From a virus, in the IMG/VR virus record IMGVR_UViG_3300042893_001295, positions 1 to 26,348 of that record: a stretch of 26,348 bases of DNA; one strand, written 5' to 3'. Shown one piece after another: positions 6,453-20,156 of this stretch (position 1 is the stretch's first letter; every line of letters begins with the position of its first letter). The notes under the pieces are model-generated. The model had not been told where the DNA came from and ran no database searches. It saw nothing but the letters and a program-made list of their open reading frames with translations. The translations under genes and the position numbers were made by a program.

Positions 6453-7184
6453 ATGAAATCCACATTACGTGATATCGTACAACACACACATGGACTGGGT
6501 AATATTGACCTGGTTAAAATAACTGGCACCGCAGAAGAAACAATAATTAATGCCATTGCGGAAGATCGCTCAGTTATTCTAGAAGCCAAATTCAAAGCAC
6601 CAGTGGCTGAATTCATTGGCACAGTGGGTATGCCCAATCTGGGAAAGTTGAATACCATCCTAAATATTCCTGAATACAAAGATGAAGCCAAGATTACTGT
6701 TACACGCCAGGACCGTAATGGCGAATCTGTTCCAGTGGGCATTCACTTTGAAAACGCAGCCAGTGACTTTAAAAACGACTACCGTTTTATGGCCGCTGAG
6801 ATCGTCAATGACAAACTCAAAGCAGTTAAGTTTAAGGGCGTTAAATGGGGTGTGGACATTGTCCCCACAGTCGCCTCCATCCAACGTCTAAAATTTCAGG
6901 CTAGTGCCAACAGTGAAGAAACAACTTTTGTTGCTAAAACTGAAAATGGTAACTTAAAATTTTACTTTGGTGATGCAGCCAGCCATGCCGGTGACTTTGT
7001 ATTTGAATCTGGTGTCGCCGGCTCGTTGACCAAATCTTGGTCCTGGCCAGTCAACAGTGTAATCAGCATTCTGAGTCTAAGTGGCGACAAGACATTTAAG
7101 ATTTCAGATGAGGGTGCAGCAATGATCACTGTGGACTCGGGCATCGCTGAATACAGCTACATTATTCCAGCACAAACCAAGTAA
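6453..7184 (+). CDS. 45: DNA polymerase sliding clamp, gp45
   Basis: A 243-residue protein (T4 gp45 is 228) with the pattern of a two-domain, beta-rich clamp. An N-terminal helix is followed by alternating strands, including an F-x-G-x-V-G-M-P-x-L-x-x-L block near residues 53-70. A C-terminal half ends in a strand rich in alternating hydrophobics (ISDEGAAMITVDS, then YSYIIPA). T4 clamps are trimers that tether gp43 to DNA and, with late factors, activate late promoters. Its own strong promoter and its place just after the polymerase support the call. There are no catalytic residues, so the identification rests on pattern and context. Confidence 0.75.
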   Translation: MKSTLRDIVQHTHGLGNIDLVKITGTAEETIINAIAEDRSVILEAKFKAPVAEFIGTVGMPNLGKLNTILNIPEYKDEAKITVTRQDRNGESVPVGIHFENAASDFKNDYRFMAAEIVNDKLKAVKFKGVKWGVDIVPTVASIQRLKFQASANSEETTFVAKTENGNLKFYFGDAASHAGDFVFESGVAGSLTKSWSWPVNSVISILSLSGDKTFKISDEGAAMITVDSGIAEYSYIIPAQTK

Positions 7185-8197
7185 TGCCAGCGCCGCTGAT
7201 AAAGATACATCCTTATATGTTTGAAGCCAGGTCTCGCGGATTAGCCAGGTCTGAGCCTATAACTAATACTTGCAACATGCCCAGCCGTGGCCTTTCCATT
7301 GATATGGAAGGCGATTGCTATGTATGTCACTGCGATGCATATTTACCAGTGGCTGTCACCAATATTTTAGATGTAGATCACCTGGCAGATATATGGCAGA
7401 CCAGTGCTGCTAACTATCTGCAAAAAAACATCACAGAACAAAAGTTTACCTATTGCGCTGTGGAACATTGTGGTATATTAGATCATTCAGTGAATTTACA
7501 ACGATATGAGATCAGTGTTAACATTGACGAAAGTTGTAACTTGGCTTGTCCCACTTGTCGCCGTGGACCCATTATGCACAGTTCAGGTGATGTATACAAG
7601 CGCCGATTAAAGATGGTCAACCATCTGGTCAGTCTGGCCAATGAGTTTGATGCACCACTATTATTGACCATGAGTGGCAATGGCGATCCACTGGCCAGCA
7701 CCATTATGCGCCCACTCGTACTAAACTGGCAACCCAAGCAAAATCAGGAAGTAAAACTGTTTACTAATGGTCTACTTATGGATAAACTGTTACCAGACAG
7801 CGGTATATTTCCGCACATTAAGTATTACCAACTCAGTGTGGATGCCGGTAGTCAGGAGGTGTATGAGCGTGTTCGCAGACCCGGTCGATACAATGTGCTT
7901 AGACGAAACTTGGACTGGTTAGCCGCTAATAAATCTCCAGATACCCATGTGCTGCTTTTTTTCTGCCTTAGTGCAGCCAATGTTTATGACGTCAAGAACT
8001 TTGTAGACATGTGTACTGAGTATGGATTCTATGGTAGTATTACCAAACTGGATAACTGGTATACATTTGACGATTTCGCCAGTCAGGATGTGGCTAATCC
8101 GACACACCCACTACACGCGGTGGCTTTAGATCAATTGCGATCAGTCCTGAGTACACCCAGAATCACTATACCACACACATTAACTAAATTACTATGA
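7184..8197 (+). CDS. radical SAM protein with N-terminal cysteine module (second copy)
   Basis: A 337-residue protein overlapping the clamp stop by one base (TAATG). The radical SAM motif is at C118, C122 and C125 (CNLACPTC). An N-terminal half carries C30, C45, C48, C50, C91 and C96 and a SPASM-like D-I-W-x-T helix near residues 69-73, so an auxiliary Fe-S cluster probably precedes the barrel. A GNGDPL segment near residue 165 fits the SAM-binding GGE region of the family. The substrate is unknown. It shares module order with the proteins at 255 and 17219 but differs in cysteine spacing. It overlaps the sulfotransferase by 4 bases. Confidence 0.8.
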   Translation: MPAPLIKIHPYMFEARSRGLARSEPITNTCNMPSRGLSIDMEGDCYVCHCDAYLPVAVTNILDVDHLADIWQTSAANYLQKNITEQKFTYCAVEHCGILDHSVNLQRYEISVNIDESCNLACPTCRRGPIMHSSGDVYKRRLKMVNHLVSLANEFDAPLLLTMSGNGDPLASTIMRPLVLNWQPKQNQEVKLFTNGLLMDKLLPDSGIFPHIKYYQLSVDAGSQEVYERVRRPGRYNVLRRNLDWLAANKSPDTHVLLFFCLSAANVYDVKNFVDMCTEYGFYGSITKLDNWYTFDDFASQDVANPTHPLHAVALDQLRSVLSTPRITIPHTLTKLL

Positions 8198-8814
8198 GTT
8201 TTATAAATTACCATCAGGACCGTGGGCATGTTTTTGGAGAATGTTGGAGTTATCCAGACTCTGAATTTATGTACATTAATATACCAAAAAATGCCACCAG
8301 TTGGACTAAACAAAATCTACAGAACTGGGGTTGGGAATGTTACAATTATCATACTGATAATCTTAAAAAAACTCCAATAATAGTATTGCGTGATCCTGTG
8401 GATCGTTGGTTGAGTGGCATTGGTGAATACATGTACCTGTATCATCGAAACATTAATATTGCTGAATTTAATGAAGCATTCCATGATCTAGTATTTGACA
8501 AAATAGCCTTTGACGATCACACTGAGCGCCAAGTATACTTCCTGGAGGGCTTAGAACTCACCAACGCAATATATTTTGAATTTGGTACCAATTACCGACA
8601 AAACTTTAGAAATTTCCTCATTAGTAATCAAATGCCCGATCAATATAGTAGATATGAATATCAACATGTAAGCGATGACAGCCCTGAGCGTCGACAATTT
8701 AAAAAAATATTTGGTGAGCAGATCCAACGATCTAAATATCTCTATCAAATAGAACAATACTTTAAACCTGACTACGAACTAATAGAAAAAGTGGAATTTT
8801 ATGGAACGCGATGA
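8194..8814 (+). CDS. sulfotransferase family protein
   Basis: A 206-residue protein with the two hallmarks of PAPS-dependent sulfotransferases: an N-terminal phosphate-binding segment NIPKNATSW with K32 (5'-phosphosulfate loop), and VLRDPVDRWLSG with R66 (3'-phosphate site). It should move sulfate from PAPS to a hydroxyl or amine, most often on a sugar. It is shorter than typical carbohydrate sulfotransferases but includes both cofactor loops. It overlaps the radical SAM gene by 4 bases and dpdA by 14. The acceptor could be a surface glycan, a virion glycan or a modified base; only the family is seen in the sequence. Confidence 0.75.
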   Translation: MSFINYHQDRGHVFGECWSYPDSEFMYINIPKNATSWTKQNLQNWGWECYNYHTDNLKKTPIIVLRDPVDRWLSGIGEYMYLYHRNINIAEFNEAFHDLVFDKIAFDDHTERQVYFLEGLELTNAIYFEFGTNYRQNFRNFLISNQMPDQYSRYEYQHVSDDSPERRQFKKIFGEQIQRSKYLYQIEQYFKPDYELIEKVEFYGTR

Positions 8815-10534
8815 CCTAACTAGTAAACAGAACGACTATGCAGTTTTTCTACCAGCACTAAGTGGATTCTATGCCACATACATTGGCAAACAACGATCCG
8901 ATGCGAGCTTTATTCCACCAGAACGCATGCCTGCGGGTATTCCTGATATGGAGCAACTCAATTGGCTGAATCCACAGAAGGGACTATTTCCCTATCGCTG
9001 GAGTCTGTACTCAGCAGGACACGCCAATCTGGATTTAAACAAGGTAGATCCAGGTGAGGATATGGTTCGTGATCGCGACCCCAGTGCCATTATCTTGGGC
9101 GACTCGGGCGGATTCCAGATTGCCAAAGGTGTCTGGGAAGGTATCTGGGCGGCACCCGATAGCCCTGGTGTACAGGCTAAATTGACTGAACTAGCTGGTA
9201 AAACCGAACAACGTGTTAATAAATCGGGCAAGACTGTCACAGTTGACTTACTAAAAGAATACCAAGATAAATTGGATGCCGCACAGAAAAAACGTGAGGG
9301 TGTTCTCAGATGGATGGACGGTGTTATGAACTGGGGCATGGTACTGGATACACCAGCCTGGGTTGCTAACACACCAGTTGGACCTAAAATTGGCCTATAC
9401 ACATATGATGATGCCGTGGCTGCAACCAAATATAACAACGAATATTTTATTCGGCATCGTAAAGGCGTTGAAAATGGTGGCGTTAAGTTTTTGAATGTAT
9501 TACAAGGTAGTCATCATACTGAAGCATTTAACTGGTATGAGACCATGAAGGATTTCTGTGATCCTATCAAATATCCCGGCAGACACTTTAATGGTTGGGC
9601 CATGGGAGGTCAGACCAAGACCGACGCTGAACTTATGATTCGTTTGCTGATTGGTATGAAGTTTGACGGATTACTACAACAAGGTAAGCAGGATTGGTTG
9701 CACGTTCTGGGAACTAGTAAGATTGAATATGCTCTGCTATTGACTGACCTGCAGCGAGCCATTCGTAAATATGTTAATCCTGATTTTACCATCAGCTTTG
9801 ACTGTGCGAGTCCATTCCTGGCCACAGCCAACGGACAGATCTACCATCATGCCGATCTGAGTCGGGATAATGGACGCTGGAGTTATCGTATGAGTAAGAG
9901 TATTGACGATAAGAAATATGCCCTGGATACTCGTACATTACGTGAAGTGGCCATGCACGATTTTGTTGACCACTTTAAACATTTTGATGAAAGTCCCATC
10001 AGTGCTCATTGTAAGATCAGCGACATCTGTATCTACAAGCCTGGTGTCCCCAAGACTGATCTGGAGTTGGATGATGTGATCTTTGATCTACATAATCCCG
10101 ATCACTATGTAGTACAACCAGATCTTAATAAAATTAACAAGATTGGACGCACCAGCTGGGACAGTTTTAGCTATGCTCTACAAATGGGCCACAATGTCTG
10201 GACACATATCTATGCGGTGCAAGAAGCCAATCGCCAATATGATCAGGGTCGGCTGCCCAAGAGTATGCAATGGAGTACTGGTGATTATTCCAAATGTCGC
10301 GACCTAGTAGAACAGATCTTCTCCGCGTCAACTCGGGAAGAAGCAGAAGCAATCATTACCAAATATAAGATGTATTGGATTGAAATTTTAGGATCGTTTG
10401 GTAATATTGGTAAGAAAGCCATCAACTCAGAAACACAATTCCAAGCCCTGTTTACTTTCGTTGAAGATGATAACGACGGTGAGATTGGTGATGACATGGA
10501 ATTTGATGAAACTAAATTAGACAATCTATCCTGA
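8801..10534 (+). CDS. dpdA: DpdA, 7-deazaguanine DNA transglycosylase
   Basis: A 577-residue member of the tRNA-guanine transglycosylase superfamily. Motif GDSGGFQIA with D101 matches the TGT substrate-binding block, and ISFDCASPF with D334 is the probable nucleophile. GGQTKTDAE near residue 267 and H403/C404/C410 may be substrate and zinc sites. Phage DpdA swaps guanine in DNA for preQ0 or a derivative, giving resistance to restriction. It is longer than bacterial TGT (about 375 residues), which fits the phage DNA enzyme. FolE, QueD, QueE and YhhQ in the same window support the DNA-modification role over tRNA queuosine. The start overlaps the sulfotransferase by 14 bases. Confidence 0.87.
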   Translation: MERDDLTSKQNDYAVFLPALSGFYATYIGKQRSDASFIPPERMPAGIPDMEQLNWLNPQKGLFPYRWSLYSAGHANLDLNKVDPGEDMVRDRDPSAIILGDSGGFQIAKGVWEGIWAAPDSPGVQAKLTELAGKTEQRVNKSGKTVTVDLLKEYQDKLDAAQKKREGVLRWMDGVMNWGMVLDTPAWVANTPVGPKIGLYTYDDAVAATKYNNEYFIRHRKGVENGGVKFLNVLQGSHHTEAFNWYETMKDFCDPIKYPGRHFNGWAMGGQTKTDAELMIRLLIGMKFDGLLQQGKQDWLHVLGTSKIEYALLLTDLQRAIRKYVNPDFTISFDCASPFLATANGQIYHHADLSRDNGRWSYRMSKSIDDKKYALDTRTLREVAMHDFVDHFKHFDESPISAHCKISDICIYKPGVPKTDLELDDVIFDLHNPDHYVVQPDLNKINKIGRTSWDSFSYALQMGHNVWTHIYAVQEANRQYDQGRLPKSMQWSTGDYSKCRDLVEQIFSASTREEAEAIITKYKMYWIEILGSFGNIGKKAINSETQFQALFTFVEDDNDGEIGDDMEFDETKLDNLS

Positions 10535-10546
10535 TTAATATACAAT
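10518..10546 (+). promoter_or_regulatory. sigma70-type promoter for the T-fold gene
   Basis: TAGACA at 10518-10523 and TACAAT at 10541-10546 have a 17-base spacer. The -35 lies in the last codons of dpdA. The expected leader holds AGAGGA before the ATG at 10566. Confidence 0.55.
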
Positions 10547-10565
10547 AACAGTTAGAGGAACAGTA

Positions 10566-11030
10566 ATGAATCAAGAACAACGCGAACTAATTGAAAGAAT
10601 ATCAAGTACAGCCCAACGGCAAATTTGGGTAAACTTCAAAAAAGAAGGCATACATAAATACCCTGCAGCATTAACAGACCCCATGCTGGCTACAGGAGAT
10701 GAATATGATGTATCGTTTTTGGGTTATCCTCATCGTCATATCTTTCACTTCCGGGTGTGGATCGATGTATTCCACAATGACCGAGACATTGAGTTCATCC
10801 AGTTCAAACGCTGGCTGGAAAACCTTTACCGTTCCCCCGATAACCGTAATAAGAATACCGTTTTAAGTTTAGATTACAAATCATGCGAAATGATTGCCGA
10901 CGATCTGTACGTACAGATTGCTGCACGATATTCCGGACGCAGTGTCTGGATAGAAGTAGCCGAAGATGGTGAGAACGGCTGCTTGATCAAGTACAACACT
11001 CATCGACCATATCAATCAATCAGTATCTAA
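10566..11030 (+). CDS. QueD-like T-fold protein, function unknown
   Basis: A 154-residue protein that I align by eye to the 6-pyruvoyltetrahydropterin synthase/QueD fold. H56-x-H58 followed by a beta strand matches HGHSY. DIEFIQFKRWLE (75-86) matches the D-F-x-x-L-K helix. C107-E108 followed by an amphipathic helix matches the P-T-x-E helix, and VWIEVAEDGENG (127-138) matches the final strand with E130 and E133. It lacks the catalytic Cys and the first zinc His of QueD. Such proteins recur in marine T4-like phages as hypotheticals. It has its own promoter directly after dpdA. It may bind a pterin or purine, or pair with another T-fold protein; function is inference. Confidence 0.6.
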   Translation: MNQEQRELIERISSTAQRQIWVNFKKEGIHKYPAALTDPMLATGDEYDVSFLGYPHRHIFHFRVWIDVFHNDRDIEFIQFKRWLENLYRSPDNRNKNTVLSLDYKSCEMIADDLYVQIAARYSGRSVWIEVAEDGENGCLIKYNTHRPYQSISI

Positions 11031-11039
11031 GGAAATAAC

Positions 11040-11306
11040 ATGGCCCAACCTACTTGGCTAAAGAAGTACCTGCGCATGAAACCCGAAGTTCGTTCAATTT
11101 TTGACGACCTGGATCGCTATCGTGAATTTTGTGTGGAGCAAGGATACTTCTTTGACGAAGCACATCTGTATAACGAGAAAACGCCCTGGGGTGAAATGCA
11201 ACGTATCCTCCGCGGTAAACCTGCTCGTCCGGGCTGGAACCCTTACCCACGTGCCGAGCGCAAACCTTACGACAAGCCACGCACCAACTATCGAGTACGA
11301 GATTAA
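11040..11306 (+). CDS. small conserved phage protein, unknown
   Basis: An 88-residue protein with a well-placed AAGGAA ribosome site 5 bases before the ATG. The N-terminal half (FDDLDRYREFC, then a Y-F-F-D-E-A-H-L-Y stretch) resembles a short protein I associate with many marine T4-like phages. The C-terminal third is Pro/Arg-rich and very basic, so nucleic-acid binding is plausible. No catalytic motif is visible. Confidence 0.7.
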   Translation: MAQPTWLKKYLRMKPEVRSIFDDLDRYREFCVEQGYFFDEAHLYNEKTPWGEMQRILRGKPARPGWNPYPRAERKPYDKPRTNYRVRD

Positions 11307-11337
11307 TCATGGCTAATATCAGTAATAGGATTTAAGT

Positions 11338-11502
11338 ATGGAAAACTCTCGATGTAGTACCTGCGGGATGAAAATCAAATCTGACTGTGATTATCAACAG
11401 GGCCGTTGTCCGCATCGCGCCAGTTTGGTTGACTTAATCCTGACAAGTCCATATTATATGCGATTCCACAATCTACTTAAACGCTTACGTATTATTAAAT
11501 GA
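11338..11502 (+). CDS. 54-residue four-cysteine microprotein
   Basis: A 54-codon frame preceded by AGGA 9 bases upstream and ending in ATGA with the start of the glycosyltransferase gene. Four Cys lie in the first half (C6, C9, C17, C24), spaced CX2C-X7-CX6C, with H26 close by. This suggests a small metal-binding knuckle followed by a basic helix (residues 33-54). I recognise no family. The coupling and ribosome site support a real gene. It might be a zinc-binding regulator or partner. Confidence 0.65.
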   Translation: MENSRCSTCGMKIKSDCDYQQGRCPHRASLVDLILTSPYYMRFHNLLKRLRIIK

Positions 11503-12563
11503 ACACAATCTATATTGTACCCATTGAGCCCATTGACTCTCGATACACTAAGCAATGGTACGACAATATTCCAGGTATTCTAGAATCAGCTATTACTACA
11601 CAAGGTACGAACTACACTGTCAAAACTATCGACGGAGTGACTATACCAGCAGGTACTACCAGTGGTGCGTTCCTGGACTTTGGTGCCACCAATGTCTACA
11701 AGGCCAGCCAGACAGAGGCCATCAGTCGACTGTTTAGCACTGGTGAGATCAAGCCAGGTGATAAGTTTTTGGTAACAGATGCCTGGAACTTTGCCATCAC
11801 AGCCATACGTTACATGAGTGACCTACTGGATATTCCTGTAGAGATACATGGCATCTGGCATGCAGGTGCTTATGATCCCACAGATATTCTGGGATACAAA
11901 ATGCAAAAACCCTGGCCACACCATCAGGAACGTGCCTGGTTCCATGCTTGTGATCGCAATTACTTTGCCACTGATTTCCACAAAGACATGTTCTTGCGTA
12001 ACTTGGAGATTTCTGCGGAGTTTCATCACAAAGCAGTACGTAGTGGACAACCACATACGCCCATCATCGATCAGTGCAGTCAGTATTGGAACACCATCAA
12101 GACCGACACCATGATCTGGCCACATCGATACAATGCTGACAAGCAGCCAGACATTGTGGAACATTTGCAATTGAATATCTATAGCAACACACTGATCACA
12201 CAGAAGATGAATCTCAGCAAGGCAGAGTACTATCAGACACTGGGTCGATGCAAGGTGCTGTTTAGCTGTAGTCTACATGAGAACCTGGGCATCAGTGTCA
12301 TGGAAGGTGTGCTGGCTGGTGTCATACCTGTGCTGCCAGATCGTTGCAGCTATACAGAAATGTATTTGCCGGAATTTAAATATCCCAGAATCTGGACTGA
12401 GAGTTGGGAAAATTATATAGCATACCAACTGCCCATGGCTGATTTCATCAATCAGCGTATACGTAACTATAATAACTATATCCCAGCATTGATGGAACAA
12501 AAGGCCATCTTGATCAAGGATTACCTGCAACCCACTGTCATGGTCAATCAATTGACATCATGA
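11499..12563 (+). CDS. GT-B glycosyltransferase (GT4-like)
   Basis: A 354-residue protein whose C-terminal half carries the EX7E motif of GT4-type retaining glycosyltransferases (E261 and E269 in ENLGISVME) followed by G-x-I-P-V-L-P. The N-terminal half has Rossmann-like strands and an EIHGIWHAG stretch near residue 115. It should transfer a sugar from a nucleotide donor. No hydroxymethylcytosine enzymes are visible here, so a T4-like DNA glucosylation role is not shown. A decorated 7-deazaguanine, a virion protein or a host glycan are all possible acceptors. It overlaps both neighbours by 4 bases (ATGA). Confidence 0.7.
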   Translation: MNTIYIVPIEPIDSRYTKQWYDNIPGILESAITTQGTNYTVKTIDGVTIPAGTTSGAFLDFGATNVYKASQTEAISRLFSTGEIKPGDKFLVTDAWNFAITAIRYMSDLLDIPVEIHGIWHAGAYDPTDILGYKMQKPWPHHQERAWFHACDRNYFATDFHKDMFLRNLEISAEFHHKAVRSGQPHTPIIDQCSQYWNTIKTDTMIWPHRYNADKQPDIVEHLQLNIYSNTLITQKMNLSKAEYYQTLGRCKVLFSCSLHENLGISVMEGVLAGVIPVLPDRCSYTEMYLPEFKYPRIWTESWENYIAYQLPMADFINQRIRNYNNYIPALMEQKAILIKDYLQPTVMVNQLTS

Positions 12564-12754
12564 TGGACACCAAACCGGAAATCTGGTTGGCGGTTTGCGA
12601 GGAACATTTTCCTGGCAAAACCGACGCTGAGATTATGTCATACAGTATGAAGGCTGCCGCCGATTGGTATCACGGCCAGGATAATGCATTGGCACAATTG
12701 TTTGACCAATACGTAATGATTAAAAACTTAAAAGGAGATGTAAATGGCAACTAA
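12560..12754 (+). CDS. small phage protein, unknown
   Basis: A 64-residue acidic, probably helical protein that overlaps the glycosyltransferase stop by 4 bases. W9, W36 and Y37 could form a small hydrophobic core. Its end overlaps the next gene by 11 bases and includes that gene's ribosome site. No recognised domain. Confidence 0.6.
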   Translation: MMDTKPEIWLAVCEEHFPGKTDAEIMSYSMKAAADWYHGQDNALAQLFDQYVMIKNLKGDVNGN

Positions 12755-12959
12755 GAAATCAGCAGTAAGTAAAATCAGCGATAAGCTGGCCAAGGTAAAT
12801 GAGAACTATAATGTTTATATGTACGATAATGGATACATGTTTGAGATCAGTGGCAAGGATTCTGAAGGCGATTGGAAGACTGCCAAGATCATGTGCGCGA
12901 CAATTGATCAGTTGGTAGAACTGGTTCGTGAGGCAGACAGCATGGAACGTGACGACTGA
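12744..12959 (+). CDS. small phage protein, unknown
   Basis: A 71-residue protein with a strong AAAGGAG ribosome site before the ATG. A basic N terminus precedes a beta-like stretch (NVYMYDNGYMFEISG, residues 22-36) and a C-terminal helix ending in an acidic tail. It resembles short conserved marine-phage proteins of unknown function. The stop overlaps the next start by one base (TGATG). Confidence 0.65.
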   Translation: MATKKSAVSKISDKLAKVNENYNVYMYDNGYMFEISGKDSEGDWKTAKIMCATIDQLVELVREADSMERDD

Positions 12960-13534
12960 TGTTCAAACAGCTTTTCGAATTTGAAAAAGCTCTGTCTGAG
13001 TACACTGGTGCACCTTATGTAATATTAACAGACGGGTGTACCCATGCTATTGAATTATGCATGCGATACGATCAGGTCAAAGCCTGTAAATTTACAGCCC
13101 ATACATATCTTAGCATTGCCATGACCATGCGTCAACTGGGCATCAGTTATGAGTTGATCGAAGAACGATGGACTGGTGAGTATCAATTTTACGGCACTCG
13201 AGTCTGGGATAGTGCTCGCAGACTGGAACGTGACATGTATCGATCTGGAGCCATGCAGTGTTTAAGTTTTGGTCACAGTAAGCCTCTGGAAATTGGAAAA
13301 TGTGGGGCCATATTATTAGACGATGTTGCTGCCTATCATGTTATAAGTCGTTGGAGGAGTGACGGCCGCGATCTGACAGTAAGTCCCTGGCAGGAACAAG
13401 CTAAATTTAGCGTTGGTTATCACTATTGTCCTACTCTGGAGTCCTGTGCTCAGGGTCTGGAAAAATTACCTCAGATTAACCAACCACCTAAATATCATCA
13501 ATATCCTGATCTCAGGCATATTCAAATTGTTTGA
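12959..13534 (+). CDS. half-length DegT/DnrJ/EryC1-type PLP aminotransferase-like protein
   Basis: A 191-residue protein matching only the large-domain core of DegT-family sugar aminotransferases (usually 360-400 residues). TDGCTHAIEL (24-33) fits the PLP phosphate-binding turn. FTAHTYLS (45-52) corresponds to the AYTYVA block. D84 in VWDSAR fits the PLP-pyridine Asp, and K108 in SFGHSKPLEIG fits the Schiff-base Lys. All key cofactor residues seem present, but the C-terminal small domain is missing. It may be a compact enzyme, act in a dimer, or have lost activity. DegT enzymes make amino sugars on nucleotide carriers, which would fit the neighbouring glycosyltransferase. The last codons hold the -35 of the folE promoter. 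Confidence 0.65.
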   Translation: MFKQLFEFEKALSEYTGAPYVILTDGCTHAIELCMRYDQVKACKFTAHTYLSIAMTMRQLGISYELIEERWTGEYQFYGTRVWDSARRLERDMYRSGAMQCLSFGHSKPLEIGKCGAILLDDVAAYHVISRWRSDGRDLTVSPWQEQAKFSVGYHYCPTLESCAQGLEKLPQINQPPKYHQYPDLRHIQIV

Positions 13535-13559
13535 CTATACTGTCAAAATAAATTATAAT
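13531..13559 (+). promoter_or_regulatory. sigma70-type promoter for folE
   Basis: TTGACT at 13531-13536 and a perfect TATAAT at 13554-13559 are 17 bases apart. The expected start is near 13566, and an AAAGGAA ribosome site follows before the ATG at 13583. Confidence 0.85.
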
Positions 13560-13582
13560 ACATTATCTTAAAGGAAAAACTG

Positions 13583-14281
13583 ATGTCAGAAGGTAAACAT
13601 CTGAGCGAAATAATTCGCTCTCGCATGCAGCAGGACGGTAAGAGATTTTGGGCTGGTGATAATATCAGCGAATACTTGGCTGACAGTGATCGCGAACATT
13701 TGATCAATGAAGCCACTGAGGCCTTTGAAGATGTACTGGACACATTACTTATTGATCGAGAGAATGATCCCAACAGCAAGGGAACTGCACGTAGATTGGC
13801 CAAGATGTATTTTAACGAGATCATGGCCGGTCGTTACGAATCTGCTCCAGATGCAACAGCATTTCCAAATGATAGTGAGGATAGATATGAAGGTATGTTG
13901 GTTGTGCGCAGTGAGTTGCGCAGTATGTGCAGTCACCACCATCAGCCTGTTAGCGGTGTTGCCTACATCGGAATTATCGCAGCCAACAAGCTTATTGGGC
14001 TTTCTAAGTATACTAGGATTGCTCAATGGTGTGCTCGCCGTGGTACTTTGCAGGAAGAGCTCTGTAACGACATCGCCAGAGAAATAAGCCGGGCCACAGA
14101 CAGTAACAACGTAGCTGTCTACATTCAAGCAACACATGGATGCTGTGAGAACCGCGGTATCATGGCACATAGTTCGTTAACACAGACTACTGTACTAAAG
14201 GGTCGCTTCCTGGAAGATGCTGGTACCAAGAAAGAGTTCTTTGACAACATCAAACTACAACAAGAGTTTGCGCCCAGATGA
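13583..14281 (+). CDS. folE: GTP cyclohydrolase I
   Basis: A 232-residue FolE (E. coli 222). It opens GTP to 7,8-dihydroneopterin triphosphate, the first step to folate and to 7-deazaguanines. The zinc site is intact: C116 and H119 in SMCSHHH, and C187 in HGCCENRG. The family blocks P-V-S-G, NKLIGLSKYTRI and R-x-x-x-x-QEEL are in order. Its own strong promoter and the queD and queE genes nearby point to a role in the 7-deazaguanine path. The stop overlaps the ATG of a short frame at 14278. Confidence 0.95.
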   Translation: MSEGKHLSEIIRSRMQQDGKRFWAGDNISEYLADSDREHLINEATEAFEDVLDTLLIDRENDPNSKGTARRLAKMYFNEIMAGRYESAPDATAFPNDSEDRYEGMLVVRSELRSMCSHHHQPVSGVAYIGIIAANKLIGLSKYTRIAQWCARRGTLQEELCNDIAREISRATDSNNVAVYIQATHGCCENRGIMAHSSLTQTTVLKGRFLEDAGTKKEFFDNIKLQQEFAPR

Positions 14282-14346
14282 TTACTCTGCCTCCCGGTTG
14301 TACCGTTAGTCAGAATATCAGGATCGTGGTCAGTGACATTGACTGA
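14278..14346 (+). pseudogene. 5' part of a probably frameshifted small gene
   Basis: A 22-codon frame begins with an ATG that overlaps the folE stop (ATGA), as real junctions here do, and ends at a TGA at 14344-14346. It reads like a protein start (MITLPPGC, then a beta strand). The next frame, shifted by one base, continues with LTDDMVQWF as if it were the rest of the same protein. Skipping one base near 14338 would join them smoothly. This suggests an indel, a sequencing error, or +1 frameshifting (the stop is TGA followed by C). Confidence 0.45.
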
Positions 14347-14617
14347 CGACATGGTTCAATGGTTTGTGGATGTGGGTGGCTCAGTCAGTACTGACCATCA
14401 ATTCAAAACGTATTCTTATCCCCCAGAGCGCGAAAAGATCATCAAACGTGTCAGCTACGGCCGTGGCAAGTATTGTTATCGGCTGCAGGATGGCACTAAT
14501 GGCACCTTGTTACACTTCCAGGGCGAAGATGCAGTGGTGGCATCGGCATTTATGTTAAGATTTAACAACTACATATTATCACACAACTTTCCGGAGTTTA
14601 CCAATGAGCACGCCTAA
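14333..14617 (+). CDS. conserved phage protein, unknown (likely missing its true N terminus)
   Basis: A 94-codon frame opening at a GTG. No good ribosome site precedes it and the frame is open upstream to 14282 without an ATG, so the GTG may not be the true start. The body has an acidic start (TDDMVQWF), a basic middle (residues 30-48) and a compact C-terminal half with RLQDGTNGTLLHFQGEDA. It resembles small conserved T4-like phage proteins. See the entry at 14278 for the probable N-terminal part. It overlaps the phosphoribosyltransferase by 14 bases. Confidence 0.6.
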   Translation: MTLTDDMVQWFVDVGGSVSTDHQFKTYSYPPEREKIIKRVSYGRGKYCYRLQDGTNGTLLHFQGEDAVVASAFMLRFNNYILSHNFPEFTNEHA

Positions 14618-15104
14618 AAAATATTACACTGATCGAGATGTTCGCAGTTTCGTACATAAAATTATTCGTGACATGACGGCAGACGGCTGGCGACCCGACT
14701 ACATCGTGGGATTGACCCGTGGTGGGTTGGTACCAGCTAATATGTTGAGTCAGTATCTGGATATCCCCATGAATGCCTTAAAGGTCAGTCTCCGCGATGA
14801 TACTGATAGTCAAGAAAGTAATCTCTGGATGGCTGAAGATGCATTTAATGGCAAAAACATCTTGATCGTGGACGACATTAACGACACGGGTGCTACATTA
14901 AACTGGATACGTCAGGATTGGCCTAGTGGCTGTCTTCCTAACGATGAAAAATGGAATACCGTTTGGAATAACAATGTTCGATTTGCTGTACTAGTGGATA
15001 ACCAGAATAGTGAATTTGACACCATTGACTACAGTGGCGTAGAGATCAATAAAGCCGAAGAAGATGTCTGGATTGTTTTTCCTTGGGAAAATTGGTGGGA
15101 ATGA
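14604..15104 (+). CDS. type I phosphoribosyltransferase
   Basis: A 166-residue protein with the PRPP-binding signature ILIVDDINDTGAT (residues 86-98, D90 and D91), an early GLTRGGLVPA loop (36-45), and a C-terminal W-I-V-F-P-W-E segment typical of purine (xanthine/guanine) phosphoribosyltransferases. It would join a nucleobase to ribose 5-phosphate from PRPP. In this setting the base could be guanine for GTP supply or a 7-deazaguanine for salvage; the latter is inference. No terminator follows it before the queD control region. Confidence 0.8.
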   Translation: MSTPKKYYTDRDVRSFVHKIIRDMTADGWRPDYIVGLTRGGLVPANMLSQYLDIPMNALKVSLRDDTDSQESNLWMAEDAFNGKNILIVDDINDTGATLNWIRQDWPSGCLPNDEKWNTVWNNNVRFAVLVDNQNSEFDTIDYSGVEINKAEEDVWIVFPWENWWE

Positions 15105-15131
15105 TATTTACTGTGTATGTAATTCGAGCAA

Positions 15132-15139
15132 GATAAATA
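15132..15139 (+). promoter_or_regulatory. T4-type late promoter candidate (GATAAATA) upstream of queD
   Basis: GATAAATA is followed by ATAGTATC. The stretch ATAAATAAnAGTATC is shared with the site at 24932, so the match extends beyond the promoter core. Late transcripts starting near 15146 would read through a hairpin into queD. Confidence 0.5.
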
Positions 15140-15149
15140 ATAGTATCAC

Positions 15150-15174
15150 AGCGGTCTCGGGCATCATCCCCGCT
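15150..15174 (+). other. hairpin upstream of queD
   Basis: AGCGG at 15150-15154 pairs with CCGCT at 15170-15174, and GGG at 15159-15161 can pair with CCC at 15168-15170 as an alternative inner helix. There is no T run after it. It would sit in the leader of late transcripts and just before the sigma70-type promoter. Confidence 0.4.
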
Positions 15175-15202
15175 ATACAAACTCTGCTGCCTATGCTATA
15201 AT
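15174..15202 (+). promoter_or_regulatory. extended -10 promoter for queD
   Basis: A perfect TATAAT at 15197-15202 is preceded by TGC, the extended -10 element. TATACA at 15174-15179 gives a 4-of-6 -35 with a 17-base spacer. The start near 15209 falls at the AGGAG ribosome site (15209-15213), so the leader would be only about 11 bases. Confidence 0.7.
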
Positions 15203-15219
15203 TAACATAGGAGAAATAA

Positions 15220-15771
15220 ATGATTCATTATAACGAAACTGATTTAATAAAGTCTATTAATCAGCAAACACTTTTGCAACCTAGGCAATACAAATACACT
15301 AGCACCAAAGAATACCACGATGCATTTCCTTGTGCGTATAGACAGTGGCGGGCCGATAGTCACTGTAATTTAATTCATGGCTACAGCTTTAGCATGAAGT
15401 TTTACTTTGGTACAGACGACTTAGATGTACGCAACTGGGCCGCTGACTACGGCGGACTTAAAGAACTTAAAAATGTCCTGGAAATGCAGTTTGACCACAC
15501 ATTGTTGGTGGCCGAAGATGATCCAGAGTTGCAGACATTTATCATGTTGGAATCCAAGAACATGGCCAAGTTGACCATCCTGCCCAAACTGGGTTGCGAG
15601 GGTTTGGCAGACATGCTGTACAAATTTATCAATGGCGTGTATATTCCTGATAACTGGGGACCAGGTGAGGCAGAACGCCTATGGTGCTATCGTGTAGAAG
15701 TACGTGAAACACAGAACAACATGGCGTTCCGTGAAGGCCATCGTGAATGGGCAGAGGATTTATTTGCATAA
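15220..15771 (+). CDS. queD: QueD-type 6-carboxy-tetrahydropterin synthase
   Basis: A 183-residue T-fold enzyme (E. coli QueD about 120) that would turn dihydroneopterin triphosphate into 6-carboxy-5,6,7,8-tetrahydropterin. The core FPCAYRQW, then SHC with catalytic C49, then H53-G-Y55 aligns with the QueD F-x-A-A-H and C-x-x-x-H-G-H blocks. FDHTLL near residue 91 holds the D-H pair, and VEVRET near 159 is the final strand with the substrate Glu. The first and third zinc His are replaced by Tyr (Y40, Y55). A long-form subfamily with HGY exists in my memory of phages and Alphaproteobacteria, so this may be normal for it. It has its own promoters and is coupled to the aldolase gene (TAATG). Confidence 0.85.
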   Translation: MIHYNETDLIKSINQQTLLQPRQYKYTSTKEYHDAFPCAYRQWRADSHCNLIHGYSFSMKFYFGTDDLDVRNWAADYGGLKELKNVLEMQFDHTLLVAEDDPELQTFIMLESKNMAKLTILPKLGCEGLADMLYKFINGVYIPDNWGPGEAERLWCYRVEVRETQNNMAFREGHREWAEDLFA

Positions 15772-16409
15772 TGTTAGAAACTATTTGTGAAGTTTTAGTA
15801 GACGCTTACAGGCGTAACTGGATCACCAGTCGAGATGGTAATGTCAGTATTCGTCATCATGGTCGTGACCATTTTTACATTACCCCAACTGGGGTACGTA
15901 AGCAAACTCTACAGCCAGATCAATTTAAGAAGATTGGAATAACAACACGCCCTGACTCGATTAATGGCTGGGTTGTATTGCCATATACTGATATCAGTGA
16001 GAAACTTGTTCCCAGTGGAGAAATCCCCTTACACTTTGGGCTACAGAAAAAGATGGGCCAGCATAGCGCAGATGTCAGAGTAGTAGTCCACCTACATCCT
16101 ACTTACTGTATAGCAGCCATGCATGCCGGTATAGATTTGAGTACTATCAGCGATGCGTTTCCGGAACTCAATCGCTACACCCGAGTAGCACCCAATGTGG
16201 GTGATGTACCTCCTATAAGCCAAGAGCTTGCTGACGAATGTCACAGGAATCTGCAATTAGATGCAGCAGGTAACATTGCTTATGACATTGTGGGCATTAA
16301 AGGACATGGTGTGGTTGCTATTGATACCAGCCCATGGCGTGCATATGAACATATCGAAAGATTGGAACACATCTGCCGTATAGTGCTGGCATCTGGAAAA
16401 CATGAATAG
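15771..16409 (+). CDS. class II aldolase/adducin family protein
   Basis: A 212-residue protein counted from the ATG at 15771, chosen over the in-frame ATG at 15747 because it forms TAATG with the queD stop. GNVSIR (22-27) binds the substrate phosphate in this family. E84 is the catalytic acid, and the zinc ligands are H107 and H109 in VVHLHP and H179 in KGHGVV. These match L-fuculose-1-phosphate aldolase. It would cleave or form a phosphorylated ketose, giving dihydroxyacetone phosphate and an aldehyde, or act as a related dehydratase. A role in building a sugar-like side chain is conjecture. Confidence 0.8.
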   Translation: MLETICEVLVDAYRRNWITSRDGNVSIRHHGRDHFYITPTGVRKQTLQPDQFKKIGITTRPDSINGWVVLPYTDISEKLVPSGEIPLHFGLQKKMGQHSADVRVVVHLHPTYCIAAMHAGIDLSTISDAFPELNRYTRVAPNVGDVPPISQELADECHRNLQLDAAGNIAYDIVGIKGHGVVAIDTSPWRAYEHIERLEHICRIVLASGKHE

Positions 16410-16593
16410 TTTTGAAAAAATCTGGGCCCGGGCCACTGGCCATTTAATGGGCGAGACTGATCACGATCGTCCAGATGTTCCTGTACTGACCTTGCGGGAG
16501 GCACGTATAGCTCTGTTCCTAAAAACATTCTGGATAGGAATCCATGTTATTACTTGCTGTTTCATTATTACCAATGTAATAAGGCATTGGTAG
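16402..16593 (+). CDS. small single-span membrane protein, unknown
   Basis: A 63-residue protein overlapping the aldolase by 8 bases. A polar N-terminal half is followed by one hydrophobic segment at about residues 39-59, so it is probably anchored in the inner membrane by its C terminus. The stop lies in the right arm of an inverted repeat that precedes the transporter gene. No family recognised. Confidence 0.6.
   Translation: MNSFEKIWARATGHLMGETDHDRPDVPVLTLREARIALFLKTFWIGIHVITCCFIITNVIRHW
16569..16592. repeat. 8-bp inverted repeat before the yhhQ-type gene
   Basis: TACCAATG at 16569-16576 and CATTGGTA at 16585-16592 are perfect inverse complements with an 8-base loop. The right arm contains the end of the small membrane gene. 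It could be an RNA hairpin before the transporter or a protein-binding site. No T run follows. Confidence 0.5.
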
Positions 16594-16617
16594 TATTATT
16601 AACTATGAGGACTTAAA

Positions 16618-17229
16618 ATGTTAGACCGTTTTTTACCCGGCGTAGACCGTACATTAGTTTTAAAGTTAGTGGCATTCCACACATTTGTCATCGCCATTAG
16701 TAACTGGTTAGTTCAATATAAGTTTGGATTCTTTGGACACCCCATTGCAGTATCAGCATTTACATTCCCACTGGTGGTAGTGGCCACTGACCTTACAGTT
16801 CGTATGGTGGGCAAAACCACTGGTCGAGCGGTGGTGGCACTGAGTTTTATTCCAGCAATTATTGCCAGTATTCTGGTAGTATTAGCATCTGGCGCACCAA
16901 GTTCAGTAGCTGTTCGCATTGGCATTGGTAGTGGCTTGGCATATTTTATTGGAACATTGTTGGATGTATATATATTCCAATATTTCCGAGAAAAATACAA
17001 CAGCTGGTGGATTGCACCCACATTAAGTAGTATTGTTACTACCATCGTGGATACCTACACCTTCTTTAGTACAGCGTTCTACAAGAGTGCCAACACGTTC
17101 ATGGCAGATAACTGGCACATCGTTGCTACCAATCATATTATCATCAAGGTATTAGTAGGATTACTGGTCGTTATCCCAGCATACGGTGTTTTACTTAACT
17201 ATATGCAAAAGAAGCTGGATGCAAAATAA
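16618..17229 (+). CDS. yhhQ: queuosine precursor transporter (YhhQ/VUT family)
   Basis: A 203-residue membrane protein with six hydrophobic segments, at about residues 15-33, 42-60, 68-90, 98-119, 125-148 and 165-190. The N-terminal I-S-N-W, the VVVATDLTV block ending near residue 61 and the G-K-x-x-G-R stretch match the COG1738/YhhQ pattern. The family carries preQ0 or preQ1 across the inner membrane. In a phage with dpdA, folE, queD and queE, it would supply precursor for DNA modification. It has a GAGGAC ribosome site and overlaps the next radical SAM gene by 11 bases. Confidence 0.85.
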   Translation: MLDRFLPGVDRTLVLKLVAFHTFVIAISNWLVQYKFGFFGHPIAVSAFTFPLVVVATDLTVRMVGKTTGRAVVALSFIPAIIASILVVLASGAPSSVAVRIGIGSGLAYFIGTLLDVYIFQYFREKYNSWWIAPTLSSIVTTIVDTYTFFSTAFYKSANTFMADNWHIVATNHIIIKVLVGLLVVIPAYGVLLNYMQKKLDAK

Positions 17230-18484
17230 AAAAACCTGGCCTATTGATATAGAGCCCACGTGTCAAGCAAAATGGAACTGGAGTACTATTTACTTAACCA
17301 ATAGTGCTTCAGCTTCATGTCATCGCACAACACAGTACAAATTTGATTTAGATTCTTTTGACGATTTTCATAACCTTCCTGAGAAGATTAGAGATCGTCA
17401 GATGATGCTGGACGGGCAATGGCCCGGTAATGGGTGTGAGTATTGTCGTAAAATTGAAGATGCTGGTGGATTTAGCGACCGTATGTTCAACAATACTAGT
17501 AATAATGCCACGCCAGATGAAGTATTGACAGACCCCACTGTAGTTCGTGTGATTCCCAAAATGGTCGAAGTGTATTTTGATAATACTTGTGATCTCAAGT
17601 GTACCTATTGTGGTCCCTGGTATAGCAGTGCCTGGGCCGCAGAGAACAAACGTCATGGATATTGGGAAAATCAGAGCTTTCAACTAATTGATGACTACAA
17701 AAAGAGCGATAATCGCCGAGCCTATGTCGAAAAGTTCTGGCTATGGTGGGATCGTCATTATGATCACCTAACACATTTTCAATTTCTGGGTGGAGAACCG
17801 TTCTTCCAACGTGAATTTGATGAGTGTCTGGATTTTATCGAAGCTCGCAGTAACCCCAATCTGACTTTTAATATCAGCAGTAATTTAAACTGCACTACTG
17901 ATCATTTAAAAGAAAAAATAGAACGTTTTCGACGTATGCAGGAAGATGGAAGGATTAAGACACTACAAATTACTGGCAGTATAGACTGCTGGGGACCTGA
18001 GCAGGAACATATCCGTTATCCTTTAAATTTGGATAGATTCAAAAATAATTTCGATTATTTGGTCAGCCAGAAGTGGTTAGTATTAAGTATTAATAGTGCT
18101 ATTAGTAGCTTGAGCATTAAAACCATGCCGGACTTATTACAAAGATTAAATTCCTGGAGGGAACATCGTCCTATATATCAGAACTTTATGACTATCCAGG
18201 ACCCCATGCCTATGAACCCCGATTATCTGGGTGGTGAGGTATTCAAAGAAGATTTTGAGAAAATAATTAGCATTATGCAGGAGACCGAACACATGGATAG
18301 TTGGTATAGCAATTTTGTCCCCTATATGCAAGGCATTGCTCGACAGGTAGCTGCTAGTAAGCCCAACCCAAGTAAATTGAAGGAATTCAAGGCTTATCTA
18401 AATGAACTAGATCGTCGACGTGGTACTAACTGGCCTGCATTATACCCATGGCTGGTTCAAGAGTTTAACCGTCATGAAATTTAA
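17219..18484 (+). CDS. radical SAM protein with N-terminal cysteine (twitch/SPASM-like) module (third copy)
   Basis: A 421-residue protein counted from the ATG at 17219. The frame is open upstream to an ATG at 17186, but 17219 has AGAAG just before it and gives a short overlap with the transporter gene. The radical SAM motif is at C124, C128 and C131 (CDLKCTYC), with FLGGEPFFQ near residue 198 as the GGE SAM-binding motif. The N-terminal module has C15, C34, C73 and C76, nearly the spacing of the protein at 255 (CX18C then CX2C). The pair are probably paralogs. Neighbours are yhhQ and queE. The substrate is unknown. Confidence 0.82.
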   Translation: MQNKKTWPIDIEPTCQAKWNWSTIYLTNSASASCHRTTQYKFDLDSFDDFHNLPEKIRDRQMMLDGQWPGNGCEYCRKIEDAGGFSDRMFNNTSNNATPDEVLTDPTVVRVIPKMVEVYFDNTCDLKCTYCGPWYSSAWAAENKRHGYWENQSFQLIDDYKKSDNRRAYVEKFWLWWDRHYDHLTHFQFLGGEPFFQREFDECLDFIEARSNPNLTFNISSNLNCTTDHLKEKIERFRRMQEDGRIKTLQITGSIDCWGPEQEHIRYPLNLDRFKNNFDYLVSQKWLVLSINSAISSLSIKTMPDLLQRLNSWREHRPIYQNFMTIQDPMPMNPDYLGGEVFKEDFEKIISIMQETEHMDSWYSNFVPYMQGIARQVAASKPNPSKLKEFKAYLNELDRRRGTNWPALYPWLVQEFNRHEI

Positions 18485-18501
18485 CTTTGGTCATATTCTT
18501 T

Positions 18502-18530
18502 TTGACATTCACAAATCAATCAATTACAAT
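18502..18530 (+). promoter_or_regulatory. sigma70-type promoter for queE
   Basis: A perfect TTGACA at 18502-18507 and TACAAT at 18525-18530 are 17 bases apart. The start would be near 18537, right before the leader hairpin at 18541. Confidence 0.8.
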
Positions 18531-18540
18531 TATTAAATAG

Positions 18541-18579
18541 ATGCCAAATAAAATTCTAAATACTTGGCATAAAATAGAA
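18541..18579 (+). promoter_or_regulatory. possible H-type pseudoknot in the queE leader
   Basis: ATGCCAA at 18541-18547 pairs with TTGGCAT at 18564-18570. Within the 16-base loop, TTCTA at 18554-18558 can pair with TAGAA at 18575-18579 in the A-rich tail. This gives an H-type pseudoknot at the 5' end of the predicted message, 28 bases before the queE ATG. The topology, not the sequence, resembles the preQ1-I riboswitch. Five A-T-rich pairs can arise by chance, so the second helix is uncertain. Confidence 0.4.
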
Positions 18580-18607
18580 AATAATTATTTACAGAGAGAC
18601 ACAAATA

Positions 18608-19489
18608 ATGTTCGGCACTAATGAAATCGTAGGCAAGAAGTATTTTAAGGATGCACCTGCCGACAGCTTGTTTGTAACCAGTATGTTCTTTACCCTTCAA
18701 GGTGAGGGACCATATGCAGGTATGCCAGCCCTATTCATTCGCCTGGCCAAGTGCAACTTAGATTGCAGCTTCTGCGATACATTCTTCGACGACGGCGATT
18801 GGATGACTTATGCTGAAATTTCCAAGAAGGCGCACGAAACTATCCTGGCATTCTGGCAGGACCAAGGTAAAGAGGTTCCTAACTGGGCAGTTGAGCAACA
18901 ACACGTGGGAAAGATGTACCCCAACATTGTGTTGGTTATGACAGGTGGTGAGCCCTTGATCCAGGAAAACATTTCGGAGTTTATGGCGCAACAGTTGCAC
19001 AACTTTAAGGAAGTGCAGGTAGAAAGCAATGGCATCCCCGATACTGTCGTACCCCCAGGCGTTACATTGGTTTGCAGTCCCAAATGTGTGGAGAAGAATG
19101 GTCGTGCCATCAAGTACTTTGCTCCCAGCAAGACTATCTTGGATCGTGCAGACTGTTTAAAGTTTGTGGTAAGTGCCGATCCCGAAAGTCCATACAGCAG
19201 CGTTCCTGACTGGGCGTTGGAGTGGCGAGATCGCACAGGCAAGCAAATCTACTGTAGCCCAATGAATGTGTACAATAGTTTACCACAACGGATCAAGCTG
19301 TTGCGTTCTGAGAAAGGTACTATTACCATGGCAGAACGTAGTACTGTAGATGAGGTCATCAGCTTCTGGGAACCAGGCCTGTTAAACTTGGAGGCCAATC
19401 AACGCAACCATGAATACACAGGACAGTATTGTGTAGAAAATGGTTTACGATTGAATCTACAACAACACCTGTATGCGAGTTTAGCTTGA
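18608..19489 (+). CDS. queE: 7-carboxy-7-deazaguanine synthase
   Basis: A 293-residue QueE (commonly 210-250). It converts 6-carboxytetrahydropterin to 7-carboxy-7-deazaguanine by radical SAM chemistry. FFTLQGEGPYAG (27-38) is the family signature. The cluster cysteines are C49, C53 and C56 (CNLDCSFCDT), and MTGGEPL near residue 117 is the GGE motif. VESNG and the late C-S-P motifs are present. An insertion after the cluster (about residues 60-105) makes it longer than bacterial forms. It is preceded by a strong promoter and a structured leader. The stop overlaps the next start by one base. Confidence 0.95.
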   Translation: MFGTNEIVGKKYFKDAPADSLFVTSMFFTLQGEGPYAGMPALFIRLAKCNLDCSFCDTFFDDGDWMTYAEISKKAHETILAFWQDQGKEVPNWAVEQQHVGKMYPNIVLVMTGGEPLIQENISEFMAQQLHNFKEVQVESNGIPDTVVPPGVTLVCSPKCVEKNGRAIKYFAPSKTILDRADCLKFVVSADPESPYSSVPDWALEWRDRTGKQIYCSPMNVYNSLPQRIKLLRSEKGTITMAERSTVDEVISFWEPGLLNLEANQRNHEYTGQYCVENGLRLNLQQHLYASLA

Positions 19490-19701
19490 TGCCACTGGAT
19501 ACTCTTATGAATATTCGAGACGAAGTCTGGGCTCGACCATGGAAACTACAATTTGCATGGAAGCCTCAGAGGTGCTATGCATCAAATGAATTAATTTGGC
19601 TGACTTGGGGTTATAGAGGAACATCACAGTATATTATTAATACGCCCGCAATATGGTTGACCAAAGTTGAGTATCTGATAAAGTGCTTAAAAGATGTCTA
19701 A
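19489..19701 (+). CDS. small phage protein, unknown
   Basis: A 70-residue protein from the ATG at 19489, which forms TGATG with the queE stop. The frame is open upstream to 19429, but that would overlap queE by 61 bases. It is rich in Trp (six) and basic. I see no domain. It overlaps the next gene by 8 bases. Confidence 0.6.
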   Translation: MPLDTLMNIRDEVWARPWKLQFAWKPQRCYASNELIWLTWGYRGTSQYIINTPAIWLTKVEYLIKCLKDV

Positions 19702-20155
19702 TATAGCCAAGGGTCGCAACAGCTACGACAGCACATTTGGTAATACTGTAGTACCATTCTTCAACAAGAACGTCACCCCATATCCCACAGAAGCAGGTGG
19801 TCCTGCATTTGATCTAGTGCCAGTCACCCGACAAAAAGACATCATGCTGAACGTGGCTCGTATGCACGCCGAGCAAGAGTACAACAGGATTATGGAACTG
19901 GTTGATGTCCTACAGCGACAAGCCGCAGATATCAAACGCAGATTAGATTTGACCGACATGGTACATGCAGCTAAGTATGATTTTCAAATAGCACATGGAC
20001 AAACGTATTGGTTGGTACAAGATACACGCCGAAACGAACTCATACTGTGTGGCATGGAACCAGACGGTTGGTCAGCTGGTGCTCCTACGTGGTATGAGTA
20101 TATTGTAGCAGTAAAGTGGTTAGGTGACCACACCTGGATTGAAGTAGAGGAATAA
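19694..20155 (+). CDS. conserved phage protein, DUF2452-like
   Basis: A 153-residue protein. An N-terminal region rich in Gly, Pro and Asn (GPAFDLVPV near residues 36-44) is followed by a long helix (about 50-88) and a compact end with Y-x-F-Q-I-A-H-G-Q-x-Y-W-L (residues 95-107). This layout fits DUF2452 proteins, whose function is unknown to me. It overlaps the preceding gene and stops one base before the next ATG. Confidence 0.6.
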   Translation: MSNIAKGRNSYDSTFGNTVVPFFNKNVTPYPTEAGGPAFDLVPVTRQKDIMLNVARMHAEQEYNRIMELVDVLQRQAADIKRRLDLTDMVHAAKYDFQIAHGQTYWLVQDTRRNELILCGMEPDGWSAGAPTWYEYIVAVKWLGDHTWIEVEE

Positions 20156-20156
20156 T

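Follow-up and report, generated by a model that had tools for sequence, protein, structure and literature searches.

Which base a phage could place in its DNA when it encodes FolE, QueD and QueE of the 7-cyano-7-deazaguanine (preQ0) pathway next to a predicted DNA guanine transglycosylase (DpdA), while QueC is not found, is the question raised by the viral DNA analysed here, a 26,348-nt IMG/VR fragment (record IMGVR_UViG_3300042893_001295; hereafter the window). An earlier note, made from the sequence alone, had proposed that DpdA, FolE, QueD, a YhhQ-type transporter and QueE, all on one strand of a T4-like replication region, form a 7-deazaguanine DNA-modification module. All reported module genes proved intact, on the + strand and with unchanged coordinates (Table 1), and the catalytic residues named for DpdA (D101/D334), FolE (C116/H119/C187) and QueE (C49/C53/C56) were confirmed. 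Family matches as well as the fold and lineage of DpdA support the module, and judged by these genes the phage very probably modifies its DNA with a 7-deazaguanine, the base itself being predicted. On balance we lean towards a post-replicative, QueC-independent module that includes a dedicated sugar-transfer step; that a sugar is carried by the 7-deazaguanine in DNA is plausible and is predicted more tentatively.

The DpdA of the window escapes public family models: no model of Pfam, PHROGs, NCBIfam or PADLOC matched the protein, and searches against the PDB by sequence or by profile returned nothing. Its AlphaFold2 model (predicted local distance difference test, pLDDT, 80.8) adopts the (beta/alpha)8 fold of tRNA-guanine transglycosylases (TGTs), and its PDB matches at E<=0.001 are solely such enzymes (QTRT1, archaeosine TGT; best E=2.9e-7, TMt 0.52), while the matches in BFVD include DpdA2 of phage nt-1 and the Motura 'tRNA guanine transglycosylase'. 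D101 and D334 are invariant across 41 aligned sequences and their catalytic roles are assigned by homology; fold and conserved residues together predict that the enzyme swaps guanine in DNA. The family comprises 57 IMG/VR loci, roughly 48–87% identical to the window protein, and homologues in isolates, namely the PA5oct group (31% identity), Sinorhizobium phage Phosso and Vibrio phage 2.275.O, all annotated as 'hypothetical'. In the window and in relatives the gene is linked to 7-deazaguanine pathway genes and to DNA replication genes. Searched against a set of 7 sequences, the DpdA profile matched nt-1 DpdA2 weakly (7.9 bits, E=5e-4); a protein of phage ACP17 that adjoins QueD, FolE and QueE was matched better (17.9 bits), and for the 9g DpdA no significant match was obtained. 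The profiles of the window-type DpdA and of DpdA2 separate cleanly, nt-1 DpdA2 scoring 708 bits on the one and nothing on the other. By sequence, the protein is neither DpdA1 nor DpdA2, the two subfamilies covered by the comparison, and its nearest characterised relative, judged by the weak sequence match and the fold match, is the distant nt-1 DpdA2.

The case for a further step on the inserted base comes from a gene downstream of DpdA that encodes a putative glycosyltransferase (GT). Two baits were used to follow it across phages. With DpdA as bait, all distinct loci that extend 6 kb or more downstream (21/21) were found to have a GT of the window family, at a distance of 0.9–3.8 kb, by a GT profile that contains members of the same clade. 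With the GT alone as bait, 53 loci that include 4 kb or more on each side were compared, and all but one (52) have a DpdA homologue; among the dereplicated loci DpdA was found in 40/41 and FolE in 39/41. The GT occurs in two subtypes that are only ~22% identical while the DpdAs paired with them are ~60% identical, and a search with a single sequence of one subtype recovers the other (E 1.9e-13 for X1, 1.3e-10 for ACP17, 1.1e-8 for PA5oct and 1.8e-4 for the window). All four pairings of GT subtype with DpdA subtype were seen in dereplicated loci (49 A-X, 30 B-X, 9 A-2 and 1 B-2): the subtypes recombine. In a tblastn search with the window GT (E<=1e-3) only 19 of 50,697 phage records were matched, and all 15 strong matches lie in phages with DpdA homologues. 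The isolates with the pair are the PA5oct group, Acidovorax phage ACP17, Xanthomonas phage X1, Phosso and Synechococcus phage BUCT-ZZ01. By this comparison the GT is a near-invariant genomic partner of window-type DpdA and of related DpdA2-type enzymes. Such an almost constant pairing with a sugar-transferring enzyme suggests a sugar-coated guanine. The earlier note had listed glycosyltransferase, sulfotransferase and aminotransferase-like genes as lying between the core genes; the GT is not incidental and, like h10566 described below, is a conserved DpdA partner, while the conserved set includes neither the sulfotransferase-like nor the aldolase genes, which are lineage-specific. A GT-like gene and a short DegT-type aminotransferase-like gene (mini-DegT) are indeed present; the 'sulfotransferase' (8194–8814) has no Pfam match.

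Family assignment of the GT has weak Pfam support and firm support from the fold. Its structure model (pLDDT 93.6) shows a GT-B fold whose closest PDB entries are BshA, glycogen synthase and MshA (best E=6.9e-11), and within the EX7E motif E269 is invariant and E261 nearly so among 26 sequences. The GT4 enzymes matched share 9–14% identity with it, and the T4 alpha- and beta-glucosyltransferases are not among its top 50 structural matches. A GalE-like nucleotide-sugar epimerase is encoded in 20/21 DpdA-bait loci, which carry the other GT subtype, mostly directly after the GT, and the mini-DegT is found in 17/21 DpdA-bait and 7/41 GT-bait loci; both neighbours are consistent with the use of a nucleotide-sugar and do not indicate the acceptor. 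Modelling and genomic context together lead us to predict that the GT places a sugar on the base inserted in DNA. In the one weak-match phage that was examined, Xanthomonas PhiXhv-12, the GT lies near a Gat-QueC gene. There (L178, 115242–131982) Gat-QueC, an LmbE-type deacetylase, a distant member of the GT family, GNAT-like proteins and an oxidoreductase are clustered, which is possibly a second sugar-linked deazaguanine system.

The second conserved partner is h10566, a protein of 154 aa that was present in 21/21 DpdA-bait and 38/41 GT-bait loci. FolE, QueD and QueE of the preQ0 pathway are encoded in the window. A motif search found no QueC in it, nor was QueC found in a 67.8-kb contig of the same virus or in a 340-kb relative, and nothing exceeded the cut-off in 24 GT-bearing records, isolates among them. 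Near-threshold QueC-like matches in DpdA relatives were rejected as NAD synthetase by sequence. QueC is present in nt-1 and Vibrio 2.275.O, both of which lack the GT, and is likewise absent from isolates that carry h10566 and have no GT match: Cellulophaga phiST, Rhizobium RHph_I1_18, Vibrio Bakedbeans, Aeromonas Ahp1 and Chryseobacterium MA9V-3. These isolates were picked via h10566 itself, so that the QueC-less pattern, not being an unbiased count, is suggestive only. As h10566 occurs in phages without QueC, it is a candidate for a QueC bypass, possibly as decarboxylase of 7-carboxy-7-deazaguanine (CDG). Cui et al. (2023) reportedly described an enzyme of this kind, DpdL, from phages whose DNA contains 7-deazaguanine (dDG). 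A CDG decarboxylase would account for a route without QueC, and h10566 is found in QueC-less phages, Cellulophaga phiST among them. Two other candidates for this decarboxylase were discarded. The phage-type QueD with altered zinc ligands (HGY for HGH) occurs in the same variant in the QueC-bearing phages Iggy, Erebus and R5C, and a class II aldolase whose gene (15747–16409) overlaps that of QueD is not conserved with the module and was not found in deazaguanine phages, its closest homologues in the phage collection sharing 21–27% identity.

Taken together, these genes allow the following route to be proposed. Judged by homology, FolE would convert GTP to dihydroneopterin triphosphate (H2NTP), QueD would form 6-carboxytetrahydropterin (CPH4) and QueE would yield CDG, while YhhQ may bring in further precursor. 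With QueC missing, the phyletic pattern points to h10566 as the protein that would process CDG, the most likely reaction being a decarboxylation that gives 7-deazaguanine; alternatively, QueC of the host would supply preQ0. DpdA would then exchange guanine in DNA for the modified base, with D334 as putative nucleophile and D101 in base binding, and the guanine released could be salvaged by a Gpt-like phosphoribosyltransferase (PRT) to GMP and further to GTP. Finally, with a nucleotide-sugar as donor, the GT would glycosylate the inserted base, and the resulting bulky guanine would block restriction; 7-deazaguanine in phage DNA is a known defence against restriction by the host. The product of this route, a glycosylated 7-deazaguanine whose base is made independently of QueC, inserted by DpdA and sugared by a GT4-type enzyme, with supply by GalE-like epimerase and mini-DegT in some lineages, is put forward as a tentative reading.

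Table 1. Features of the conserved replication block and the proposed modification module in the window.
Feature	Coordinates	Strand	Basis
T4-type family B DNA polymerase (conserved block begins here)	2795..5458	+	PHROGs, PDB sequence match, relatives
probable sliding clamp (phrog_12062 protein), judged by its place between polymerase and DpdA	6453..7184	+	PHROGs, relatives
DpdA, predicted DNA guanine transglycosylase of an unannotated subfamily, 577 aa; D101, DSGGFQ, D334	8801..10534	+	relatives, invariant Asp, TGT fold
h10566, phrog_17812, 154 aa; conserved together with DpdA, candidate for a QueC bypass or CDG decarboxylase	10566..11030	+	locus counts, QueC-less isolates
GT, GT-B/GT4-like, putatively retaining glycosyltransferase, 354 aa; EX7E at E261/E269	11499..12563	+	weak Pfam, fold, relatives
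mini-DegT, 191 aa, short protein resembling pyridoxal phosphate (PLP) aminotransferases; SFGHSKPL holds a candidate PLP lysine	12959..13534	+	PF01041 E=1.1e-10
FolE, GTP cyclohydrolase I; C116, H119, C187	13583..14281	+	Pfam E=4.7e-39, PHROGs, NCBIfam
PRT, Gpt-like purine (xanthine/guanine) phosphoribosyltransferase	14604..15104	+	Pfam, NF006613 E=2e-15
QueD, phage-type, altered zinc site (YRQ...C...HGY)	15220..15771	+	phrog_2389 E=2.3e-36, Pfam
YhhQ, 7-cyano/7-aminomethyl-7-deazaguanine transporter family	16618..17229	+	NF008406 E=1.4e-51; TIGR00697 above cutoff
QueE, 7-carboxy-7-deazaguanine synthase; C49, C53, C56	18608..19489	+	phrog_2076 E=6.7e-44, Pfam, NCBIfam

Several observations weigh against a dedicated sugar step and a QueC bypass. 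The modification as well as donor and acceptor of the GT are all predicted, GT4 enzymes serve many acceptors, and 7-deazaguanine itself, if that is the base, offers no obvious oxygen or nitrogen handle at C7 to which a sugar could be attached. Vibrio 2.275.O has a window-type DpdA without the GT and encodes QueC and QueF. h10566 has no significant family match in Pfam and PDB searches, and its profile match to QueD, for which a possible QueD-like fold was considered, is weak and local (40 columns; pairwise E=6e-5, probability 65%, reversed decoy 0.3%). Distant PP-loop proteins, possibly diverged QueC, are encoded in one GT-bearing record (G042) and in the h10566-bearing Vibrio phage D479. Phage sugar-gene clusters are otherwise assigned to surface polysaccharide in a jumbo-phage survey (PMC7824862).

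These points leave room for an ordinary 7-deazaguanine modification, in which the CDG made by the module is completed by host QueC or by nothing at all, DpdA puts dPreQ0, dCDG or dDG into the DNA, and a GT with an unrelated function is linked by chance. QueC is present in most hosts. The YhhQ family is a preQ0/preQ1 transporter, known phages need no more than DpdA, FolE, QueD, QueE and QueC, and modification with preQ0-type bases alone is documented (PMC6884629). We nevertheless hold this explanation to be rather unlikely, as the GT is retained by both independent baits, with both DpdA types and in varying gene order, whereas no such retention is seen for the remaining sugar-like genes of the window. 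The acceptor could also be soluble, the GT sugaring a pterin or deazapurine intermediate before or instead of its insertion into DNA, comparable to the cyanobacterial tetrahydrobiopterin glucosyltransferase. FolE and QueD, enzymes of the pterin pathway, lie near the GT, the linkage of GT to FolE is as tight as that to DpdA (39/41 versus 40/41), in Phosso the GT stays beside FolE and QueE while DpdA is ~170 kb away, and the tetrahydrobiopterin enzyme (5zer) is among the structural matches. It ranks merely 39th, however, among many GT4 enzymes of similarly low identity, and the GT mostly lies directly beside DpdA, with zero genes between them in PA5oct, ACP17 and X1, which makes a soluble acceptor improbable. 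Least probable is an auxiliary metabolic role, with a DpdA-like protein that acts as a tRNA-guanine transglycosylase and a gene set that increases the queuosine content of host tRNA. The protein does fold like tRNA TGTs, and phages that carry preQ0 genes without DpdA are thought to raise tRNA queuosine (PMC6884629). Yet the TGT family PF01702 had no match in these phages (control rings were found in 14/14 genomes), the sequence searches matched no TGT, the CxCxxC zinc motif of TGTs was not seen on inspection by eye, and DpdA is fixed beside DNA polymerase and clamp, its closest characterised relative being a DNA enzyme. The protein thus does not group by sequence with tRNA TGTs, as the assignment in the earlier note demanded.

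The setting of the module was examined as well. A second IMG/VR contig (G026, 67.8 kb) is 100% identical to positions 11240–20560 of the window over 9,321 nt and continues the same virus downstream. The isolate phage collection contains no near-identical match. The best PDB sequence match of the DNA polymerase is the T4/RB69-type gp43 (E=6.5e-61), in line with a T4-like replication context; the PDB sequence search with the phrog_12062 protein gave no match. The gene order polymerase-methyltransferase-clamp-DpdA-h10566 is kept across IMG/VR relatives, and the class I methyltransferase (5458–6393) between polymerase and clamp occurs in all DpdA-bait relatives and not in PA5oct. Of the strong promoters claimed for three module genes, matches to 11 of 12 consensus bases were recovered upstream of the clamp (6403), FolE (13531) and QueE (18502), and one to 10/12, with TG, upstream of QueD (15174). 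The 54 promoter-like sites of the window exceed the 40.8 +/- 6.0 of shuffled sequences modestly, so that the promoter evidence is suggestive only.

Further genes showed features of their own. A protein of ~168 aa (EVEHTPA...IYFGAN; L056:12307–12813) lies downstream of DpdA in 20/21 DpdA-bait loci and precedes it in ACP17; it has no Pfam or PHROG match and was not found in the window. In phage-type QueD (window, ACP17, Phosso, Iggy, Erebus, R5C) only one of the usual three zinc histidines is present (YRQ/FRQ and HGY versus GHR and HGH), whether or not the phage has QueC. QueE is 78% identical to that of the 340-kb relative, and three relatives (L072, L073, L075) carry a long QueE insertion between cysteines 2 and 3 of the cluster motif, with an NAD synthetase gene adjoining. 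The PRT is found in 31/41 GT-bait loci and, in BUCT-ZZ01, lies beside QueE and is annotated as xanthine-guanine phosphoribosyltransferase. Besides QueE the window encodes three radical SAM proteins (222–1415, 7184–8197 and 17186–18484), the last of which scores above the NCBIfam N_Twi_rSAM cut-off.

That T4-like phages can have a modified guanine, a combination which the earlier note had considered notable, is not new: among Vibrio phages, dPreQ0 at 0.1% of G is known from nt-1 and dPreQ1 at 15% of dG from Schizotequatrovirus 6E351A (PMC12028318 and PMC6884629). The cluster of nt-1 and the schizotequatroviruses (DpdA2, FolE, QueD, QueE, QueC) resembles the window in its T4-like context, in FolE, QueD and QueE and in a distantly related transglycosylase of TGT fold; it differs by the presence of QueC, the absence of GT and h10566, and a DpdA2 of a separate subfamily. 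Closer to the window is the Pseudomonas jumbo phage PA5oct, which has a DpdA of the same family, GT and h10566 directly downstream and no QueC. A deazaguanine synthesis and incorporation system of PA5oct was noted earlier in the jumbo-phage survey (PMC7824862), the available part of which does not name GT or h10566 among its components; in the PA5oct record DpdA, GT and h10566 are still annotated as 'hypothetical'. ACP17 and BUCT-ZZ01 share QueD, FolE, DpdA, GT, h10566 and QueE, a T4-like genome and the lack of QueC with the window, but their DpdA is DpdA2-type and BUCT-ZZ01 has the other GT subtype. The T4 alpha- and beta-glucosyltransferases acting on hydroxymethylcytosine follow the same idea of a GT-B enzyme that sugars a premodified phage DNA base, whereas their base is cytosine and its handle is made at the nucleotide level. 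In the literature searched, which was in part available as excerpts and did not include the full text of Cui et al. (2023), we found no description of glycosylated deazaguanine DNA, of the unrecognised DpdA group, of its pairing with the GT or of the QueC-less h10566 pattern.

The findings extend the predicted modification of guanine in phage DNA to a DpdA group that lacks a public model; since the public family models tested do not detect this group, phages with such a DpdA are being missed. They also name two unannotated and near-invariant partners of DpdA, h10566 and the GT. Because cultured phages carry the same triad (BUCT-ZZ01 on Synechococcus elongatus PCC 7942, ACP17, X1 and the PA5oct relatives), the prediction is directly testable. 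If true, the base would belong to a class undescribed for phage DNA in the literature searched, guanine hypermodified with a sugar, and would be a counterpart to the glucosylated cytosine of T4.

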